DNA of 39,752 bases from an uncultured bacterium (GCA_949293185.1 CASFCQ010000011.1:1-39752); one strand, 5' to 3'. Positions 3 through 36,467 are shown, counted from the stretch's first letter. Notes: generated from the sequence alone by a model not told the origin. Program-made: numbers and translations.

Positions 3-188
3 TTTTCAGGCTTCACCACAGTTCAGCCGAAAAAGAAGGCAAAGGTGAGCAGTGACGGCTCGAAGGCTCGAGGCGGCAACTGCGACACTAGATTAGATAT
101 TGAAATGCAGGCAGAGCCTATATTCAATGCACAACCACAAATCAATTGTGCACTGCCTGTTCATCAAAAATCGAAAACTTACTGCTGA
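3..188 (+). CDS. possible 3' end of a gene cut by the window edge
   Basis: One plus-strand frame is open from the left edge to a TGA at 186-188 and would give about 61 residues with a Lys-rich start (QPKKKAKV) and an end QKSKTYC. The other two plus frames close within the first 60 bases. The frame would overlap the minus-strand DUF2997 gene tail-to-tail by about 10 bases. I do not recognise the protein. A hairpin with arms TGCACAA (128-134) and TTGTGCA (146-152) lies inside it but has no T-tract, so it is not a clear terminator. The frame could be chance; low confidence. Confidence 0.3.
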   Translation, partial: FSGFTTVQPKKKAKVSSDGSKARGGNCDTRLDIEMQAEPIFNAQPQINCALPVHQKSKTYC

Positions 189-385
189 GAGTTATAAAGA
201 TTGTTATCTTCATAGACTTCTGTCTCGTAGTATTCCGCAGTAAGTTCCTGTGAGGTTATTTTTGCGTCAGCAAGCTGTTCTAAAAGTTTTGCATAATCGA
301 GACATTTTTTGCCTTTAACGCCTTCTGTATGCATTTTTATTTCACCGTTTGGCAAAAGTTGTATCTTTAGCTTTTTATTGTCCAT
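179..385 (-). CDS. DUF2997 family small protein
   Basis: This 68-residue protein has the pattern I associate with DUF2997: a short N-terminal strand, PNGEIK, then EGVKGKKC, then a helix leading to LTAEYYE and an acidic tail. The molecular function of the family is unknown. Members are small proteins often encoded with DUF1257 (Ycf35-like) proteins and a Ycf46-type AAA ATPase, especially in cyanobacteria, and that is the arrangement here. It is the last gene of a five-gene minus-strand run, 12 bases after the DUF1257-like gene. An AAAGGTG ribosome site lies about 8 bases before the ATG. Assignment is from sequence pattern plus context; function is not inferred. Confidence 0.75.
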   Translation of the reverse strand: MDNKKLKIQLLPNGEIKMHTEGVKGKKCLDYAKLLEQLADAKITSQELTAEYYETEVYEDNNLYNSQQ

Positions 386-397
386 ATTAACACACCT

Positions 398-955
398 TTA
401 ATTAAGATTTATCGTAAGCATAATAGAATTGTCTTCAAGTACTTCTTCTTCGTCAATTTGAAGATTTTTTTGAGCAAGCCGTTCTTTTATTTTTAGATAA
501 GATTCTTCCTGTGCATTCAATCCGTATTCGGAGCTCAAATCATGAAGAATGGCTGTGTCATCACAGTTTTGGTCACAGGTTACTTTTAGTTTAAACGGAG
601 TTGTTTCATCATCGCGGAAAAAGTTAAGATGGAAATTTTCCACATCCGCTTCAACTTTGTTTTTATCAACCATAAGTGTTTGTATGCCGTATTCCTGCAG
701 TGTTTTCATAAGCAAATCTCTGTCCATAAAAACAGTGTCATACTCATTACAGATTTTTTCGATGCTTTCTTGCGTAATAGATTGCGGATTCTGCAGGTTT
801 TCTTGAAGGTTTGCGTTTATACGGTCTTTTATCTCTTTTTCGCTAATTGCTTTTTGAGTTTCTCGGCTTTCTCTCTCTGTTTTAATTCCGTAAGCTATAG
901 AGGATACAACAGCGTATAAGAGTCCGAACGGAAGTGCTGAAATTGTACAAGACAT
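398..955 (-). CDS. DUF1257/Ycf35-like protein with N-terminal hydrophobic segment
   Basis: The C-terminal half of this 185-residue protein (about residues 75-185) resembles the DUF1257/Ycf35 family. It has a short 'RDLLMKTLQEYGI' opening, a middle strand region, and a YLKIKERLAQ helix followed by EEEVLEDNSIMLTI, like the usual end of that family. The first 75 residues are different: a hydrophobic start (LPFGLLYAVVSSIAYGI) and then a charged helix, which suggests a membrane anchor or a lineage-specific extension. It sits 18 bases after the Ycf46-like ATPase gene and before DUF2997, the usual partners of this family. AAAGGA stands upstream of the ATG. Family assignment is moderate because the conservation is weak; the function is unknown. 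Confidence 0.6.
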   Translation of the reverse strand: MSCTISALPFGLLYAVVSSIAYGIKTERESRETQKAISEKEIKDRINANLQENLQNPQSITQESIEKICNEYDTVFMDRDLLMKTLQEYGIQTLMVDKNKVEADVENFHLNFFRDDETTPFKLKVTCDQNCDDTAILHDLSSEYGLNAQEESYLKIKERLAQKNLQIDEEEVLEDNSIMLTINLN

Positions 956-973
956 AAAGTTATAATCCTTTCA

Positions 974-2605
974 TTAAAAATCTAAAGAACGTCCGCCGCG
1001 TGTTTTTGAAACATCCTTTTGCTCGTCGTCTTTGTCAATATTGTTGTTGTAGTGTGTCATATCTTCTTTTTTGGTTGCGGCAACAGCTCTTACATTTGCC
1101 CAGGCTCTGAGTGAAAGTATTTGTTCTCTTTGTGTTGTAGAAAGAGGAACGGTATTTTTTATTGTTTTTTCCAGGTCTTTAAGTTCAAGCGCTCTTTTTT
1201 CAAAGAATGCCTCGTAAAGCGCAGATATAACAACCTGTTCAATTTCTGCACCTATAAAGCCTTCTGTGAGCGATGCGAGTTTTTGGCACAGCTCGTCTGT
1301 AACCTGTACTTTTTGAGCAACATCTTTGTCCTTCAACCTTTTTTGAAGATGGAGTCTGAATATTTCCACCCTTTCGTTAAAGGTAGGAATATCAACAAAG
1401 AAAATTTCGTCGAATCTGCCCTTACGCATAAGCTCCGGAGGAAGATTGTTTATGTTGTTTGCGGTTGCAATAACGAATACGGGAGCTTCTTTTTCCTGCA
1501 TCCAGGTCAAAAACTGTCCGAAGATTCTTGATGTAACCCCGCTGTCACCGCCGCCGGAGTTTACGCCGCTCAAACCTTTTTCTATTTCATCAACCCAAAG
1601 GATAGATGGAGCAACAGCCTCTGCTGTTGCAATTGCGCGGCGCATGTTTTCTTCCGAACTACCGACAAGCCCGCTGAATATCTTGCCTAAATCGAGCCTT
1701 AAAAGCGGCAGCTGCCATATTGCGCTCATTGCTTTTGCTGTCAAACTTTTACCGCAGCCCGGAACCCCTGTAATAAGAACACCCTTAGGTGCAGGGATAC
1801 AGTATTTCTTTGCATTTTCAGACCAGGAGTTGTTGCGTTTTTTCAACCAGCTTTTAAGGTTATCGAGACCGCCTATGTCGTCTATGCTGAGATTTGTTGT
1901 CACAAACTCAAGGATACCGGTTTTTTTGATGACCTGCATTTTTTCATCCATAATAATTTTTAAGTCATCAATGCTTATTGTTCCGTCATTGACCATTGCA
2001 AGCGCAAACGCATTTTCTGCCTCTTGAAGTGTCAGACCTAATGCTGCTTTACACAGTCTTTCCTTATCTTCTTCCGTAAGAGTATCTGATTTAACCTTTA
2101 CGTTTTGAGTAATCATTGTATTTAATTTTGTGCTGATTTCCTTTAAGGATGGCAGCGGGAAATTACAAATAGTTATATCTTTTTGAAGAGTATCAGGTAT
2201 TATTAAATCCGGTGAAATAAAGAATACATTTTTTCGTGCCTGACTTGTTTTTAGTACGCTGACAAGGTCTCTCAGCCTTCTTACGAGTTCATAATCACAT
2301 CCGCGGTTGTTTACACCGAAGTATACATGAAGGTCATAGAATAAGAAGACTGCATCTTTGTCGCATTTTTCAACATACTCAAGAGCTTTTGACGGAGTAA
2401 CTGTTCCTGGAATCGGTTTTTCTGTTTCATCATTAACAAGTCCGTTTGTTTGCGTCCATATATAGACATCTCTCGGTACTTTTACGAGTTTTGGCTCTCT
2501 TACTATTTTTTTTAGAAGATTTGTTACCCTTTCTTCTTCGTATGTTGTGATGTAAATGTAAGGAAACCTTGCCCTTATCAGGTTTGATAACTTTTTAACA
2601 AGCAT
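974..2605 (-). CDS. ycf46: Ycf46-like AAA ATPase
   Basis: The 543-residue protein carries a single AAA module. Walker A is GVPGCGKS at residues 280-287, Walker B is [10 protein letters not shown] at 335-344, and an RKGRFDE arginine-finger region is near 394-400. The N-terminal 230 residues begin with [19 protein letters not shown], the typical Ycf46 opening, and lack the membrane helices of FtsH. The C-terminal lid is followed by a charged tail ending in TRGGRSLDF. Ycf46 occurs in cyanobacteria, many plastids and some other bacteria; its substrate is not established as far as I know. The start overlaps the end of the radical SAM gene by 11 bases, and CGGAG precedes the ATG, so translation is probably coupled. 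Confidence 0.85.
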
Positions 2606-3212
2606 AATTTTTCTCCGGTATTTGAGTATTTTTAGTTATATATTGTTTAATCTTTTTAAAGTCTGCCATTCCGTTTATAAAAACTGCTCCGTTTTTATCT
2701 ATACGTACTTCCACTTTATTTTTATATTCCATAATCTCTTTTTGTGAATAACGCTCTGAAAGAAATATATAGCGCTGGTTTTTTGACCCTGTCCAGGGGC
2801 GTGAAAGGTCAAATTCTTGTTCTTTAAATTCTCCGTCAATCAGCAGGTCTGTATATTTTAAAAGGTTTTGCACGTGTATATCTCTGCTGTCTTTTAAATA
2901 ATCATAAGAATTTCCGGTGAATGTTAACACCGAAAGCCCTGATTCCTGAACTTTTTTAGCAAGTTCAGATAAAGCTTCTGCCTGTTCAAACGGTTCTCCG
3001 CCAAGGAATGTTACTCCTTCTATATCATTTTGAGATTTTATCATCTTAAAAATTTCATCTACTGTCATAAGTTTGTTTGTGCTGTGAGACCATGTTGTTT
3101 TTGCGTGGCAGCCCTTGCAACGGCGTGAACACCCTTGCACCCACAGGCAAAATCTTTTTCCCGGACCTTCTGCCGTTGTTTTATTTAATATTTTGAAAAC
3201 GTTTACGTTCAT
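2595..3212 (-). CDS. radical SAM protein (small, NrdG-like activase type)
   Basis: The 205-residue protein has the radical SAM cluster motif CX3CX2C at C28, C32 and C35 (QGCSRRCKGC) and a GGEPF motif near residue 75, which fits SAM binding. It is a minimal radical SAM protein of the size of anaerobic ribonucleotide reductase activases (NrdG) and similar 4Fe-4S single-cluster proteins. No nrdD is nearby, so an NrdG role is not supported. The gene starts with an ATG that shares one base with the stop of the HhH gene (TAATG) and its end overlaps ycf46, so it is tightly built into the operon. Its substrate is unknown; a modified protein partner within the operon is possible but is inference. Confidence 0.8.
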   Translation of the reverse strand: MNVNVFKILNKTTAEGPGKRFCLWVQGCSRRCKGCHAKTTWSHSTNKLMTVDEIFKMIKSQNDIEGVTFLGGEPFEQAEALSELAKKVQESGLSVLTFTGNSYDYLKDSRDIHVQNLLKYTDLLIDGEFKEQEFDLSRPWTGSKNQRYIFLSERYSQKEIMEYKNKVEVRIDKNGAVFINGMADFKKIKQYITKNTQIPEKNYAC

Positions 3213-4078
3213 TACAGGTCTATGATTCTTTCCGCTTTTGCTTTTTTAACCTTTTTCATATTTACCTTATTAACACAAATTTGGGTGCTCAGCTGTTTTG
3301 CAAAGTGAGGCTTTATTCCCATAACTTCAATAAAATCATCTACTGATTTAAAAGGTCTTACAGTATCTCTGTAATTTATTATTTTTTTTGCAATTACTAT
3401 ATTTATTCCGCTAAGAGCGGTGAGTTCAGCTTCGGATGCATTGTTTACATCAACCAGACCGTCTGTGAGTTTTACAAAATTTTCTATTTCTTTGTTAAGT
3501 TTTTGGTTTTCTTTATTGCCGGAAGAGGATGCTTCTTCGTATTTTTTTGCAACTTGGGATTTTGGATTATCCTGATTCGTGTTCGCAGTTGATTTAACCG
3601 GTTTTGATGAATATACAGATTCTGTAATTATTGCGGTAGCTCTTAAAGAATTCTGAATATCGTCGTATTTAGTGCTATAGTTAAATCTTTCGCACATCAG
3701 ATCAAAGTATTCATCAATATCCATCGGGCTGAAGTTTTTGGCAGTGAGCATCATGCATTTTCCGTTTGTATCGTATTCTTTGCTTATGCAAACAATAATA
3801 TCGCCGGTTTTATTTCTGTTGAGAGTGCAAAATTTGTTTGACAGAGTAAGAGAGCCGAATATGTTTTCATACGGCTTCAGGTAATTTGATGCTGTTTTAA
3901 GGGCTGCAATCCTTCTGTTTCTTTTATTGACTTTATTTGCTGCCCAGGAAAAAATATCATTAATCGGTCGCGGACGATCATAGTAATAGTCGTCATATCC
4001 GAAATAACCGCCTCTTCGAGATCCGCCAAGAAATGCGCCTATAATCATTATGATAATGTATACTACAAAATACGGCAT
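3212..4078 (-). CDS. membrane-anchored protein with ComEA-like helix-hairpin-helix domain
   Basis: The 288-residue protein starts with a membrane segment (residues 2-18) and a Gly/Tyr/Arg-rich stretch. A central region of about 150 residues is one I do not recognise. The C-terminus (about 205-275) is a ComEA-type helix-hairpin-helix unit: VDVNNASEAELTAL, then GINIVIAKKIINYR, then the FKSVDDF region. In ComEA this domain binds DNA, but it also occurs in proteins with no role in transformation. It is the first gene of the operon that continues into the radical SAM and ycf46 genes, with AAAGGT about 12 bases before the ATG. A role in DNA uptake is possible but not shown; no other com genes are nearby. 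Confidence 0.6.
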   Translation of the reverse strand: MPYFVVYIIIMIIGAFLGGSRRGGYFGYDDYYYDRPRPINDIFSWAANKVNKRNRRIAALKTASNYLKPYENIFGSLTLSNKFCTLNRNKTGDIIVCISKEYDTNGKCMMLTAKNFSPMDIDEYFDLMCERFNYSTKYDDIQNSLRATAIITESVYSSKPVKSTANTNQDNPKSQVAKKYEEASSSGNKENQKLNKEIENFVKLTDGLVDVNNASEAELTALSGINIVIAKKIINYRDTVRPFKSVDDFIEVMGIKPHFAKQLSTQICVNKVNMKKVKKAKAERIIDL

Positions 4079-4166: not shown

Positions 4167-4199
4167 AAAAAGACCTCTCGATTTAAGAGAGGTCTTTTT
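4167..4199 (-). terminator. bidirectional Rho-independent terminator between operons
   Basis: A 13-base-pair perfect stem (arm AAAAAGACCTCTC at 4167-4179, loop 4180-4186, arm 4187-4199) has A/T tracts on both sides. It lies 15 bases past the nifS stop and upstream of the HhH gene. It probably ends the nifU-nifS transcript on the minus strand and insulates the next operon. Confidence 0.85.
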
Positions 4200-22568: not shown

Positions 22569-25181
22569 ATGAAAAATTATAAGATTATATTTATTTTATT
22601 TTTAGTATTTTTAATCCAATCTCAAGTTTTTGCAAATGATATAAATATATCCACATTTCAGCAGTTGATTAACACAGAAGCTAAAGACGGAGATGTCTTT
22701 ATTTTTAGTAATAATTTAAGCTCAGATGAAACAATCGGGCGTCATTTTGAAGGATATAATGTGACTTTTGACGGAAACAATTACTATATAAACGGCAATG
22801 ATGACTTTGGCGGTTTTGTTTTGACTCAGGACAGTACATTTAACGATGTAGGGATAAGAAATTGTAAAGGTCAATATTATCAAGGTTCAACATTTGCCGG
22901 TGCAATATTTAATGACGGTGGACATACAGATATTCACAATTCAACATTTAGCGAAAACTTTGTTGATGCGGCAGGACAAAATTTTGGTGTAGCAGGTGCA
23001 TTATACAACTTAAGCGGCGGCAGTGTTGACATTGATTCTACGGTTTTTGAAAAAAATTATACTTACGGAGCATCTTCCTATGGCGGTGCAATAGCCAACG
23101 GATATAGAGACAGCGTCTATGTTGCAAGTATGACAATCAACAACTCGACCTTTATAGATAACTATGCATACGGCACAGTTGTTCCCCATGGCGGAGCTAT
23201 TTTTAATAACGGTAATATAACAATCAATAATACAAGCTTTAAAAATAACAATGTACTGGGTGACAATGCAATGCTTGTATATGGAGGCGCTTTATATAAC
23301 GTAGGCACAATGACCATAGACGGTGCAAATTTTGAAAACAATGCAGCCGATGGCTCTTCTACAGCTCCTGCTGTCGGCGGTGCAATATATAACAATGCAG
23401 ACTTAACAGTAAACAATTCCGTTTTCAGAAATAACACGGTAAAGTCATCTTACTATGCAGACGGGGCAGCTATATATAATGATACAAACGGAAACACTAA
23501 AATAATGAACTCTCTTTTAGAAAACAACCGTGTTGATTCTTCTGCTGCAATATCTGATGGCGGTGCTGTTTATAATCAGGGCCGGCTCTCAATAGAAAAC
23601 TCAACATTAAAAGATAATTATGATAAAAACGGAGAACTAAACGACATACACAACACTGACAGCGGGGTTGTTGAATTTAACGGAAGCGGAACTACAAATA
23701 TTTTAAGCGGCATAAACGGCAGCGGCACTGTCAGCAAAAACGACAGCGGAGTACTAAATCTCGGCGGAAAAAACGACAATTATACCGGTACTTTTAATCT
23801 CACGGGCGGAACAGTCAATTTGTTAGCAAACAGCAGCTATTTTAATGCCCAGAACACAAATTTTTCTAATAACGTTAATTTTAATATGGTTAACAATGAA
23901 ATTAACAATGTTAATTTTCACAATTTGAGCTTAAACGGAACAACAAATATTTATGCGGATGTTAACTTTAACACAAAAACAATGGATACCATATCAGCTG
24001 ATTCGCTGAGCGGCAGCGGTGATTTGTTTGTTCGTAATCTTGCTCTGCACGGGGCACCTGAGGGAAAAGAAATATCTATACCTTTTACTGACAGTATTTT
24101 AAAAGATTCCGTTAAATATACTCCGTCAACCCTGCATACTTCTATATATGATTACAGAGCCAGCTATGATTCGTCTAACGGATATTTTAATTTTACAAGA
24201 GGCGGATTTAATTCCGCTATACTGGCAGCTCCTATTGCCGCCCAGCTTGCAGGTTATCTTACACAGATTGATACTTACCGTAATATATTTGCAAATCTTG
24301 ATATGGTTATGATTTCCCCGCCTGATGTTAAAACATCTTATAATTTCTGTAATAAATTAGTAACTTCTGACAAAAATTTTACCTACTCTCCTTTTTTAAT
24401 GCCTGAACAAAGAACAGGCATCTGGTTTAAACCGTATTCTACTTTTGAAAACGTATCCTTAAGAAGAGGACCTGATGTTTCTAACGTTAGTTACGGAAGC
24501 CTTGTGGGAGCTGAAAGCGGATTAAAAAAGCTTAAAAAAAACGGCTGGTATGCTTTATATGGAGCATATGCGGCTTATAACGGTTCACATCAAGCCTGGC
24601 AGGACAACAGTATATATAATAACGGCGGATTAATCGGACTGGATACAGTTTTTTATAAAGGAAAGTTGTTTTCAGCCTGGACAGCGAACATAGGGGCAAC
24701 TTCCGCCGAAGCTTCCACAAATACTGGGAATGATAATTTTTCTATGTTGAACACAGGTATTGCGCAGATGACAGGCTATAATTTTGAAACCTTTAAACGG
24801 AGGCTTATTATACAGCCGGCTTTTCTTGCATCGTATTCTTTCATTAATACATTCAACTACACAACATCTTCCGGTGTTCATATAAACGCATCTCCTTTGC
24901 ATGCTTTACAGCTTGAGCCGCGAATAAAATTCATAGGCAATTTTAAAGACTATTTACAGCCGTATATTGCTGTTTCTATGGTATGGAATGTCATTGACCA
25001 CGCAAAATTTCAGGCAAATGACATTTATCTGCCAAATATTTCCGTTGAACCGTTTGTTCAATACGGAGCAGGCATTCAAAAAAGATGGGGGGATAGATTT
25101 ACCGGCTTTTTTGAAACAATGATACGCAACGGCGGACGCAATGGCATAGCTCTGATGTTCGGGATAAGAATAAGTATTTAA
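22569..25181 (+). CDS. autotransporter with Pmp-like repeat passenger
   Basis: The 870-residue protein has a signal peptide (MKNYKIIFILFLVFLIQSQ, cleavage after VFA). The passenger (about residues 25-440) has repeats of 'GGAIYN/GGALYN' followed by a 'NNSTFxxN' or 'NFENN' type unit every 35-45 residues, the pattern of chlamydial polymorphic membrane proteins and pectate-lyase-like beta-helices. The C-terminal 260 residues, starting near 'GIWFKPYSTFENV', are an autotransporter beta-barrel. It ends in 'LMFGIRISI' and not in Phe or Trp, which is unusual. It should be exposed on the cell surface as an adhesin. There is no ribosome site next to the ATG. Its last 4 bases overlap queH. Confidence 0.85.
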   Translation: MKNYKIIFILFLVFLIQSQVFANDINISTFQQLINTEAKDGDVFIFSNNLSSDETIGRHFEGYNVTFDGNNYYINGNDDFGGFVLTQDSTFNDVGIRNCKGQYYQGSTFAGAIFNDGGHTDIHNSTFSENFVDAAGQNFGVAGALYNLSGGSVDIDSTVFEKNYTYGASSYGGAIANGYRDSVYVASMTINNSTFIDNYAYGTVVPHGGAIFNNGNITINNTSFKNNNVLGDNAMLVYGGALYNVGTMTIDGANFENNAADGSSTAPAVGGAIYNNADLTVNNSVFRNNTVKSSYYADGAAIYNDTNGNTKIMNSLLENNRVDSSAAISDGGAVYNQGRLSIENSTLKDNYDKNGELNDIHNTDSGVVEFNGSGTTNILSGINGSGTVSKNDSGVLNLGGKNDNYTGTFNLTGGTVNLLANSSYFNAQNTNFSNNVNFNMVNNEINNVNFHNLSLNGTTNIYADVNFNTKTMDTISADSLSGSGDLFVRNLALHGAPEGKEISIPFTDSILKDSVKYTPSTLHTSIYDYRASYDSSNGYFNFTRGGFNSAILAAPIAAQLAGYLTQIDTYRNIFANLDMVMISPPDVKTSYNFCNKLVTSDKNFTYSPFLMPEQRTGIWFKPYSTFENVSLRRGPDVSNVSYGSLVGAESGLKKLKKNGWYALYGAYAAYNGSHQAWQDNSIYNNGGLIGLDTVFYKGKLFSAWTANIGATSAEASTNTGNDNFSMLNTGIAQMTGYNFETFKRRLIIQPAFLASYSFINTFNYTTSSGVHINASPLHALQLEPRIKFIGNFKDYLQPYIAVSMVWNVIDHAKFQANDIYLPNISVEPFVQYGAGIQKRWGDRFTGFFETMIRNGGRNGIALMFGIRISI

Positions 25182-32960: not shown

Positions 32961-35900
32961 TTACAGTTTTTCTGCATGCAATCCTTCATACCACGCAAGC
33001 AAATCTTTTCTCTTGACTTTTTGTGTAGATGTTTTTGGCAAATCTTCTCTTCTGAATACAACTACCGTAGGCGCTTTGTAAGGTGCAAGGTTTGCCTCTG
33101 AAAGTTTTTTGACCTCGGTTTCAAGTTCTTTTTGGATTTCGTCATCAGATTTTTGAGCAAGTTCATCGGTAGGGACAATTATGACTCCGACTTCTTCCGT
33201 ACCTGCTTTGTTACCTGATTTTATTTTTAAAGAAAGCACACAGAGTTCTTTTATTAAATGAGATTGTTCCAAAACAGCCTCGACTTCTTCAGGAAATATT
33301 TTCTTTCCGCCGCCTAAAACAATCATGTTTTTAATTCTACCGGTAATCTTAATGAATCCGTCTTTATCGATTTCACCTATATCTCCAGTATGAAACCAGC
33401 CGTCTTCATCAATCACTTCTGCTGTCATCTCAGGTTTGTTGTAGTAGCCTTGCATAACATTCGGACCAGACACAAGGATTTCACCCTGTTCAGAGAGTTT
33501 TACAGTAACAGAAGGAAGAGGTTTCCCGACAGTGCCTATTTTGTGAGCTTCATAACGGTTAGTAGAAATAACGGGACTTGTTTCTGTTAGTCCGTAGCCT
33601 TCAAAAGCAGGGACGCCGATTCTTTCGAAAAATTCAGCAATTTCCGCGTCAAGCGGAGCACCGCCTGATATAAAACATTCAAATTTTCCGCCGAACCCGT
33701 CAATAATTGATTTAAACATTATTCTTCTGGCAAATCTCGGCATATATTTTGCCGCTGCATACATCATATTAAACATTTTCTGTATATGTGCGGGTTTCTT
33801 TTTGAGTTGTTTATCCACGCTGTTTTTGAGCATTTTAGCAACCAAAGGAACTACAATCATATTTGTAACTTGTTTTTCCAGCATTGCATTAGCCAGTTCT
33901 TTGGGATTAAGTGTTTTTATATAAACAATTTTTGCACCCATAAACAACATTCCGAAAAAGCCTACATTAAGCTCAAGAAGGTGATTTAACGGTAATATTG
34001 ATAAAAGCGTATTATCTTTTGATAGCTTAAACAACTTTTCAAAATCTTTCATCTGTGAATAAATATTACCGAAACTAACCATAACTCCCTTTGGATTTCC
34101 GGTTGTTCCTGATGTATAAACAATAAGAGCAGTTTCATCCATTGAACGTGGACGCCCAATGCTTTTTTCTACATCCGCATTAAGTTTTGAAACAGATAAA
34201 ATTTCCGGATGTTGTCTTTCCTCATCATCAAGAACATAAATCTCACGAATAGAAGGAACAGTATTTTTTAATTCAATTGCATGGTCAAGATAGTGGCTTG
34301 AGCAAAGCAAAATTTCAGGTGTGCAATCTGAAAGTATATGAGTATGCTCTGGTATTGTAAGTTTTACATCCAACGGAACAGTTATTGCACCTGTTTGAAT
34401 TGAGGCGAAAATCCCGACAGCAAATTCCGGACGGGATTCACAAAGCATTGCTATTCTGTCATTTCTCTGCACATCTGCCTTTTCCATCAGGTAATTTGCA
34501 AACTTTTTAGCCCTTCTGCTCAAATCAACATAGCTTATTTCTTCATAGCCGTTTTTAACCTTTAACGATACCGCCTTTGTTTGTCCGTAGGTATCGCTGT
34601 ACTGTTCCATTATATCTAGGAAGTTTGTATATTGTGTGTCTTTAATATTATAAAAAGCTCTGCTATCAAGTGCTCTTTTCATAAATCGGACACGCTGCTC
34701 CAGTTCTTTTGTGATTTCTTTTTCATCAGCAGACAAGTCAGTAACAGGCTGACCAAACTGTATAATAATAGTTGTAAACAGTTTCGGATTTTTTCTGAAT
34801 TTTCCCCAGGCTTCAAAACCGCCTTTAATTGCAAAAGGTACTATTGGGCAGTTTGCCTCTTTTGCCATAATAGCAACACCTCTGTGGAATCTTCCGGGAT
34901 TTCCGTCAGAAGTGAACTTTCCTTCCGGAAAAATAATTACCGCTTCACCGTGTTTAAGTTTTGTGACTCCGGATTCAATTGCTTCCATACCGACACCAAA
35001 ATTAAGAGGCAAAACATTAAACCATTTGAGCATATGTCTTATCACGGGGACTTTAAATGCAGCAGGTCCTGTAACAAACCACAAATTACGTTTTGTTGCC
35101 ATTTGCAGAATAAAAGGATCTAAATGTCCGGTATGATTTCCGGCAAGAATAACTTTACCTTTTTTAGGGATATTATCTACACCTTCAAATTTGTAAATAA
35201 ACAAACATTTAAAAATCTGACCGAGGGTAATTCTGAGCACAAAATATCTGAAATCCTTGTTCAATGCCAAAATCAGCACTGCCATCAACGCTGACAACAC
35301 AGCTATTCCATGGAATATAGCCAGAGGATGTATAATATCCGCACATACAGAAACAAAGCCTATACCGATAAGCGACACAAAAGTTTCTAACATAGAAGCA
35401 AAAGCAAATATTTTACCTCTTATAAAATTAGGAGAAACTTTTTGCAAAATTGTATCTACAGTAATCTTCAAAATAGCGGCACACAGCCCTATAGCCCCGA
35501 GCCAAAATCTTGCTTTAAAAAACGTTGTACACAAGGCAGCCGTTATCAAAAACACAAACAAGCCAAGAAACGCAGTAACAAGAGTTCTGGTAGTTTTAAG
35601 ACGTCTGCCGAACAATATCATTACAAACACACCGCATAAAGTTCCGCAGCCAAGCATCAATTTCAATCTAGCCAGCCCCTGAATGCTAACCTGATATACA
35701 TCAGTAGCAAGTGCATTCATTGCATTATAAAAAATTGCGGAAATTAAAGAAATTACAACCGCTATTATTATCATAGACAAAGCTTTTTTGTGTTTTTCCA
35801 AAAACGAAAAAGTCTGTTTTATATCATTTACTAAATCAAAGCTGGTTTCGTCAGAATCTTCATCCTGCCTTAATTGAACACCAAAAAGAAATAACGGAGC

Positions 35901-36467
35901 AATGAAATATAAAGCGCAGGTTACATAAAACATACTTAAAATACCGACTTTAACAAGAATTGCACTAATTAGTGTTGCTCCGAAGGTCAAAGCCAATGTA
36001 CCAGAACCCGATACCAGTGCGTTAGCTGATTTTAACGCCTGAACACTCACAACATTAGGCACTGCAGCCATTTTTGCAGGATACAAAAATGCAGTACCTA
36101 TGCCGATTAAAAGACTTAACACAACACCAAAAATTTTCACCATAGGTAAAAGCGAAGCATCACCCAACAGAATTGAATACAGCAACACTCCTAAAATAAG
36201 TACCGCGCCTCTATATAAAGAACTAAATATCATCACTTTTTTACGTGAAAAACGGTCAACAATACTGCCGGCAAAAGCACTGACAATTAATGACGGAAAC
36301 ACAAAGGAAAACAGCATCATCGCTATCAAGCTTCCGGGTTTTTCCACGCTGTTTATCAGTATTGCCATCAAAATTATCTGTATAGCAGCGTCGCCCAAAT
36401 GAGTCAACAATTGCCCCAAAAATAAATTGATAAAGTTTTTATTAAACAATTCTTTTTTTGCTCCCAT
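32961..36467 (-). CDS. aas: three-domain fusion: MFS transporter, PlsC acyltransferase and acyl-ACP synthetase (Aas-like)
   Basis: The 1168-residue protein joins three parts. Residues about 1-400 are a 12-helix MFS transporter like LplT, which flips lysophospholipids inwards. About 410-610 are a PlsC-type acyltransferase with the HX4D motif (NHTGHLD, near 440) and FPEGKF. About 625-1150 are an AMP-forming acyl-CoA/ACP synthetase with YTSGTTGNPKG (near 782) and GYGLTETSP (near 955). Together they take up lysophospholipid, activate a free fatty acid and re-acylate the lipid. In E. coli LplT and Aas are two proteins; fusion in one chain occurs in other bacteria. AAGGTTGACGG precedes the ATG. It is a single gene with a 333-base upstream gap. 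Confidence 0.88.
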   Translation of the reverse strand: MGAKKELFNKNFINLFLGQLLTHLGDAAIQIILMAILINSVEKPGSLIAMMLFSFVFPSLIVSAFAGSIVDRFSRKKVMIFSSLYRGAVLILGVLLYSILLGDASLLPMVKIFGVVLSLLIGIGTAFLYPAKMAAVPNVVSVQALKSANALVSGSGTLALTFGATLISAILVKVGILSMFYVTCALYFIAPLFLFGVQLRQDEDSDETSFDLVNDIKQTFSFLEKHKKALSMIIIAVVISLISAIFYNAMNALATDVYQVSIQGLARLKLMLGCGTLCGVFVMILFGRRLKTTRTLVTAFLGLFVFLITAALCTTFFKARFWLGAIGLCAAILKITVDTILQKVSPNFIRGKIFAFASMLETFVSLIGIGFVSVCADIIHPLAIFHGIAVLSALMAVLILALNKDFRYFVLRITLGQIFKCLFIYKFEGVDNIPKKGKVILAGNHTGHLDPFILQMATKRNLWFVTGPAAFKVPVIRHMLKWFNVLPLNFGVGMEAIESGVTKLKHGEAVIIFPEGKFTSDGNPGRFHRGVAIMAKEANCPIVPFAIKGGFEAWGKFRKNPKLFTTIIIQFGQPVTDLSADEKEITKELEQRVRFMKRALDSRAFYNIKDTQYTNFLDIMEQYSDTYGQTKAVSLKVKNGYEEISYVDLSRRAKKFANYLMEKADVQRNDRIAMLCESRPEFAVGIFASIQTGAITVPLDVKLTIPEHTHILSDCTPEILLCSSHYLDHAIELKNTVPSIREIYVLDDEERQHPEILSVSKLNADVEKSIGRPRSMDETALIVYTSGTTGNPKGVMVSFGNIYSQMKDFEKLFKLSKDNTLLSILPLNHLLELNVGFFGMLFMGAKIVYIKTLNPKELANAMLEKQVTNMIVVPLVAKMLKNSVDKQLKKKPAHIQKMFNMMYAAAKYMPRFARRIMFKSIIDGFGGKFECFISGGAPLDAEIAEFFERIGVPAFEGYGLTETSPVISTNRYEAHKIGTVGKPLPSVTVKLSEQGEILVSGPNVMQGYYNKPEMTAEVIDEDGWFHTGDIGEIDKDGFIKITGRIKNMIVLGGGKKIFPEEVEAVLEQSHLIKELCVLSLKIKSGNKAGTEEVGVIIVPTDELAQKSDDEIQKELETEVKKLSEANLAPYKAPTVVVFRREDLPKTSTQKVKRKDLLAWYEGLHAEKL

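Follow-up and report, generated by a model that had tools for sequence, protein, structure and literature searches.

Next to a nifS gene in a 39,752-nucleotide stretch of DNA from an uncultured bacterium (GCA_949293185.1 CASFCQ010000011.1:1-39752; hereafter “the window”), five genes form a compact operon on the minus strand, in the order HhH→rSAM→ycf46→orf185→DUF2997 (window positions 4078 down to 179; Table 1). They encode a helix-hairpin-helix (HhH) protein with a membrane segment, an NrdG-like radical SAM protein (rSAM), a Ycf46-type ATPase, a divergent relative of DUF1257 (orf185), and a DUF2997 protein. Ycf46, Ycf35/DUF1257 and DUF2997 are all conserved among cyanobacteria, Ycf46 and Ycf35 in algal plastids as well; to our knowledge, no biochemical function has been assigned to any of them. 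Here, we describe the five genes as a horizontally moving, self-contained module that is real, mobile and widespread. Its most informative feature, which was absent from an earlier, sequence-only reading of the same DNA, is a short C-terminal motif shared by the ATPase and the membrane protein.

The earlier reading had proposed five co-oriented genes with tight coupling, and the gene models bear this out: the HhH and rSAM genes share one base at a TAATG junction, rSAM and ycf46 overlap by 11 bases, and the remaining two intergenic gaps measure 18 and 12 bases. Its CX3CX2C radical SAM protein is present in the form C28-x3-C32-x2-C35 together with Fer4_12 and Radical_SAM domains, and both elements of what it called a ComEA-like HhH protein with a membrane anchor—the HHH_3 domain and the N-terminal membrane segment—were found. 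Between nifS and the first gene, the sequence holds an inverted repeat with a T-run behind it, which makes separate transcription of the operon from nifS probable; this repeat was seen by direct reading only and is absent from the output of a scan.

Table 1. Features of the five-gene operon and its upstream border (window coordinates).
Feature	Position	Strand	Evidence
HhH protein, membrane-anchored, helix-hairpin-helix, 288 aa	3212..4078	-	Pfam HHH_3 3.2e-16; cross-phyla alignment A8
N-terminal membrane segment of HhH protein, residues 1-22	4013..4078	-	hydropathy scan
HHH_3 domain of HhH protein, residues 208-267	3278..3457	-	Pfam
C-terminal tag ERIIDL of HhH protein	3215..3232	-	sequence; tails of relatives; R and D invariant in A8
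NrdG-like radical SAM protein (rSAM), 205 aa	2595..3212	-	Fer4_12 4.2e-37, Radical_SAM 5.1e-9
Radical SAM cluster motif C28-x3-C32-x2-C35	3108..3131	-	three Cys invariant in 36 relatives (A6)
Ycf46-type tandem AAA ATPase, 543 aa	974..2605	-	AAA 1.8e-28; AlphaFold; Foldseek
C-terminal tag RGGRSLDF of ATPase, on disordered linker	977..1000	-	RGGR invariant in 16 close relatives; pLDDT
orf185, divergent DUF1257 (Ycf35) relative with extra N-terminal region	398..955	-	hhalign
DUF2997 protein, 68 aa, invariant Cys28	179..385	-	Pfam DUF2997 3.9e-13, 49.5 bits, cut-off 24.1
Inverted repeat agacctctc-gatttaa-gagaggtct followed by T-run, likely nifS terminator	4171..4195	-	read by eye from the sequence

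The distribution of the gene set was assessed by an ATPase-alignment scan with one genome per species, from which 80 Ycf46 loci were kept; profiles of the other four families were then run against these. All five families occur together in 42 of the 80 loci from named genomes and in seven bacterial phyla; the HhH and rSAM genes thus clearly do not adjoin ycf46 in this genome only, the case in which the sequence-only reading would have called the operon incidental. The hosts comprise Gastranaerophilales, Bacillota (Neobacillus, Paenibacillus, Clostridium), many Actinomycetota, and Bacteroidota, as well as a Sebaldella, a planctomycete and an Armatimonadetes metagenome-assembled genome (MAG), while a Methanosphaera MAG carries only the ATPase and the HhH gene of the set. 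Gene order varies among the loci—with one letter per gene, HRYOD was found 13 times and YODHR 11 times, besides others including YDOHR and DHRYO—and linkage has therefore been maintained despite rearrangement. The same set is carried by Rhodococcus and Paenarthrobacter plasmids with independent annotation. The gene-neighbourhood search, hence, supports the proposal of an unassigned system in which HhH and rSAM genes have joined the Ycf46/DUF1257/DUF2997 set. No further partner genes were found to recur across phyla among the neighbours of the loci, and no published description of the module or of the shared tail was found in the open-licence literature.

Movement as a unit is evident within the home genus. 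Two genomes (G022, G021) read nifU-nifS-[HhH-rSAM-ycf46-orf185-DUF2997]-c4-c5-c6, whereas two others (G006, G003) read nifU-nifS-c4-c5-c6 and lack precisely the five genes; since the only difference between nifS and its neighbour lies in these five genes, the module moves as one piece. The site after nifS is a variable one, as other genomes of the genus hold different genes there (L327-L333). Across the home clade, full-length ATPase copies are patchy, and rSAM and HhH genes accompany most of them. All genes are under purifying selection (dN/dS, the ratio of non-synonymous to synonymous substitution rates, of 0.02-0.36 where dS could be estimated; dS is near saturation and some values are not estimable), and protein-level change is several-fold faster in HhH, rSAM and orf185 than in the ATPase or nifS. 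Recurrence across phyla together with purifying selection argues that the gene set is not a chance assembly; its membership is mostly settled, unlike its function. In a quick tree, the ATPases of the five-gene loci group within one set (58 rows, well supported at 99) that is distinct from classical Ycf46; for a few members of this set, HhH or rSAM genes are missing from the DNA examined. Phages yielded only distant Ycf46-like ATPases. On large viral contigs (L186-L265), Ycf46-type ATPases are frequent, being mostly 34-44% identical and devoid of the full tail.

The HhH protein and the ATPase are unrelated, yet both end in [G/E]-R-x-(I/L/V)-(D/E)-hydrophobic-COOH, so that the two tails of the home locus, ERIIDL and RGGRSLDF, are two versions of one C-terminal motif. 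An R-x-[ILVM]-[DE]-hydrophobic end is present on 60 of 65 HhH proteins and 51 of 82 ATPases from the 80 loci, against a background of 8 among 3758 other open reading frames (ORFs) of at least 100 aa (0.2%). As a guard against circularity, the HhH models were rebuilt without tails and two residues of slack were allowed, upon which the tag was still found on 61 of 65 HhH matches. In the motif-bearing HhH proteins, the last residue is hydrophobic and Asp-2 is kept in 59 of 60, the invariance of Arg-5 among them following from the definition of the pattern; in alignment A8, for which the tail was not a selection criterion, HhH relatives across phyla all have R284 and D287. In a Gastranaerophilales array of tandem HhH genes, all those retaining the HhH domain terminate in ER-x-(I/L/V)-D-(L/I/F), and the ATPase ends in RGGR-x-(L/I/V)-(D/E)-(F/V).

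The tag is not limited to these two families. It also ends TPR proteins and an Mrr_cat nuclease that lie next to these ATPases and have no HHH_3 match (L039, L045, L074), as well as short membrane or proline-rich proteins (L087, L095, L096, L102) and, elsewhere, a GYF-domain protein. A pattern scan of 14 genomes, eight with and six without the module, returned 57 matches, some remote ones of which were not inspected; on the loci examined, confirmed tagged ORF ends lie only in module operons, and a general proteome-wide signal was rejected on this ground. Some loci depart from the common layout. L039 and L045 hold a second, divergent version of the module in which tagged TPR proteins replace HhH, together with an Mrr-type nuclease (tagged in L039); in L043/L060, on the same contig, about eight HhH genes stand in tandem upstream of rSAM, mostly with tags and divergent N-terminal parts; and on a Paenibacillus polymyxa plasmid (L269, 8859-9479), a membrane protein beside rSAM ends in SRVIHF, perhaps a tag variant with His for Asp.

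On the ATPase, the tail goes along with the two small partners. A DUF1257-like gene lies near 55 of 58 tailed but only 6 of 22 tailless ATPases (p 2e-9), and DUF2997 near 53 of 58 versus 8 of 22. Seven loci, among them L079, which a contig end truncates, have the ATPase tail and the DUF pair but neither HhH nor rSAM in the DNA examined. In cyanobacteria, the main Ycf46 paralogue carries the related, not identical ending EYQR[LM]EF, while other paralogues have no tail, and in three cyanobacteria with this ending no strong rSAM match was found. Occurring in rSAM-less loci and in such cyanobacteria, the ATPase tail is independent of rSAM.

The ATPase belongs to the Ycf46 family, being 45-47% identical to cyanobacterial copies over residues 4-512, and the GVPGCGKS motif is invariant or nearly so in alignments A1 and A2, indicating a Walker-competent C-terminal AAA module. 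Its AlphaFold model (mean predicted local distance difference test, pLDDT, 87) has a tandem two-AAA fold matched by Foldseek to p97/Cdc48 (E ~1e-24, ~550 columns, TMq up to 0.61); the N-terminal half resembles the first AAA module of p97, and the Walker motifs reside in the C-terminal one. Residues 522-543 have a pLDDT under 50, and since the tail is disordered in the model, docking of the tail onto its own ATPase in cis was rejected. HhH relatives mostly start with one to three hydrophobic segments; their middle part varies, and a single HHH_3 domain is then separated from the tag by a spacer that is short and variable (A8). In 36 rSAM relatives (A6), the cluster cysteines are accompanied by GGEP and a conserved C-terminal hairpin, and the DUF2997 protein, matching Pfam PF11211, shows no variation at G14, G25 and C28 across 31 relatives (A7).

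For orf185, the DUF1257 label given by the sequence-only reading holds by profile-profile comparison, in which its relatives match bona fide DUF1257 proteins over the C-terminal domain (hhalign probability 96.6, E 6.6e-10), and not by Pfam, where orf185 does not match PF06868 and the 20.4 bits of a relative (L068) stay below the cut-off of 22.2. The structure model is confident for the C-terminal domain (residues ~68-185). Foldseek gave no match under E 0.001, and VIA-align returned beta-adaptin appendage domains at Z 9.0 and 8.7 and TBP at Z 8.2. A peptide-binding platform of the appendage type would be apt for a receptor of the tag, but these values lie near the common background, for which reason an appendage-like fold is not relied on.

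Docking is the best supported option for the shared tail, although our confidence in it falls just short of an even chance: the tag would recruit membrane proteins to a p97-like ring. The core would be a p97/Cdc48-like protein-remodelling ring of the Ycf46 family, bearing its own copy of the motif on a flexible linker, and the motif a docking tag recognised by a shared receptor. The putative receptor is most likely the DUF1257-like or DUF2997 core, both being ancestral companions of tail-bearing Ycf46. Most simply, the ATPase tail would dock to this old partner, and the membrane HhH proteins would have copied the tail; the tag may then recruit a membrane protein, either as a client or as an anchor, to the ring, where the NrdG-like rSAM could modify the client or a core subunit, e.g., at the invariant cysteine of DUF2997. 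The data are compatible with the guess of the sequence-only reading that the ATPase remodels, perhaps at the membrane, a protein modified by rSAM; for the possible role on DNA, which it also raised, the only basis is the HhH fold.

Several observations weigh against docking. The association of the tail with the DUF1257 and DUF2997 genes is uncorrected for phylogeny, the Arg of the cyanobacterial tail is shifted by one position, and a few five-gene loci (L082, L083) have a tailless ATPase. The HhH and ATPase tails of one locus match no better than shuffled pairs, so co-variation of the two within a locus was rejected. Finally, the membrane topology of the HhH protein is a prediction, as is the cytosolic side of its tag.

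Other uses of the tag have to be weighed. It could itself be the substrate of rSAM, in the manner of radical SAM systems that mature peptides: the modification might fall on Asp-2 or on the terminal residue, for instance, with the ATPase or the DUF proteins offering the tail to the enzyme. The location at the exact C terminus, the near-invariant Arg-5 and Asp-2 in HhH, and the presence of rSAM in most HhH-bearing loci would suit this. We consider it unlikely, given the tailed ATPases in loci or cyanobacteria that lack HhH and rSAM or a strong rSAM match, and an NrdG-like rSAM of only ~200 aa in which no SPASM extension was seen in domain calls or in the alignment of relatives. It is because related tails end Ycf46 proteins without HhH or rSAM genes that the tail is read mainly as a docking motif. 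It could instead be an unfolding or degradation signal pulled into the ATPase pore, like ssrA-type C-terminal tags, in favour of which speaks the flexible C-terminal linker with the tag on membrane proteins beside a putative p97-like unfoldase; however, the tagged ATPase would then be its own substrate, and no protease is among the recurrent neighbours, making this quite improbable.

Two further explanations concern the module as a whole. The patchy, mobile and plasmid-borne occurrence, the tagged Mrr_cat nuclease and TPR proteins in some loci, and the tandem amplification of HhH call to mind a defence or conflict system acting on DNA or invading elements, with tagged HhH, TPR and Mrr-type proteins as exchangeable effectors. 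We give this little credence, as the only similarities given by PADLOC were of a generic kind, to AAA (IetA) and radical SAM (viperin-like) families, recurrent defence neighbours are lacking among the loci, and the dN/dS values speak for purifying selection. Barely credible is an incidental neighbourhood of the anaerobic ribonucleotide reductase activase of the genome. NrdG is indeed the best NCBIfam model for rSAM, but the score of 116.8 bits lies below the TIGR02491 cut-off of 126.1, and the only NrdD of the genome (G000) is unlinked to rSAM, residing elsewhere (C31), where an activase-like gene of its own follows directly downstream. On these two grounds, rSAM was rejected as the NrdG of this genome; moreover, it travels with the other four genes.

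Extending the docking reading to the whole locus, the module may represent an undescribed prokaryotic machine, in which a p97-like ring would lend its own C-terminal docking code to an interchangeable range of membrane, TPR and nuclease proteins, and rSAM would modify the tagged clients at the ring; we regard this as possible rather than probable. If true, it would be a tail-code recruitment system without known counterpart that crosses phyla as a five-gene cassette. The short tag common to the ATPase and the linked membrane proteins offers a concrete handle that makes module function directly testable, with cultured hosts of the module among Neobacillus, Paenibacillus, Microbacterium and Micromonospora, and could reveal the function of these proteins and the target of an NrdG-like rSAM without a glycyl radical enzyme. 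Elsewhere in the window, inspection by eye revealed a 1168-aa ORF appearing to fuse a transporter, an acyltransferase and an acyl-activating enzyme (32961-36467), and an 870-aa autotransporter-like protein with repeated parallel-beta segments (22569-25181).

Among known systems, the cyanobacterial set of Ycf46 (Slr0374), Ycf35/DUF1257 and DUF2997 is related to the module by the same ATPase family, the same two small partner families and the related tail of the main paralogue, and differs in that no HhH partner has been described and that a separate clade consists mostly of five-gene ATPases. In Synechocystis, ycf46 shares an operon with slr0373 and slr0376 (PMC7496141), and the duf2997-ycf35 pair is listed with the ferredoxin fed7 (PMC4284462); according to the account of Jiang et al. 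(2015) given in PMC7496141, loss of cyanobacterial Ycf46 lowers EcaB carbonic anhydrase activity. Contractile-injection loci of spirochaetes likewise combine a radical SAM protein, a Ycf46-type ATPase with a near-terminal R-x-[LI]-E-[LM] tail, and DUF2997, but have no HhH protein, and the genes are embedded among those of the injection system. An NrdG-like rSAM and a Ycf46-type ATPase were seen amid contractile-injection genes on a Treponema succinifaciens plasmid (L268) and in L113 and L121, the latter two with DUF2997.

The rSAM shares Fer4_12 and Radical_SAM domains, CX3CX2C and the GGEP motif with the NrdG/PFL activases, but the module contains no glycyl radical enzyme and rSAM stays under the NrdG cut-off. 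ComEA resembles the HhH protein in having an N-terminal membrane segment and one HHH_3 domain; however, the HhH protein scores 44 bits against the comE model TIGR01259 (cut-off 152.35) and has a C-terminal tag, long variable regions and a genetic tie to the ATPase module. Finally, p97/VCP/Cdc48 with its PUB cofactors and PUB-interacting motifs (PIM) shares with the module the tandem AAA fold and a short linear motif in the C-terminal tail. The p97 tail binds PUB domains, and motifs of OTULIN and SPATA2 bind the same kind of domain (PMC5135002). In the module, the first AAA half is degenerate, the motif sequence is unrelated, and a radical SAM partner is present while a ubiquitin system is not; p97 is a precedent for the proposed docking by its logic, not by its sequence.

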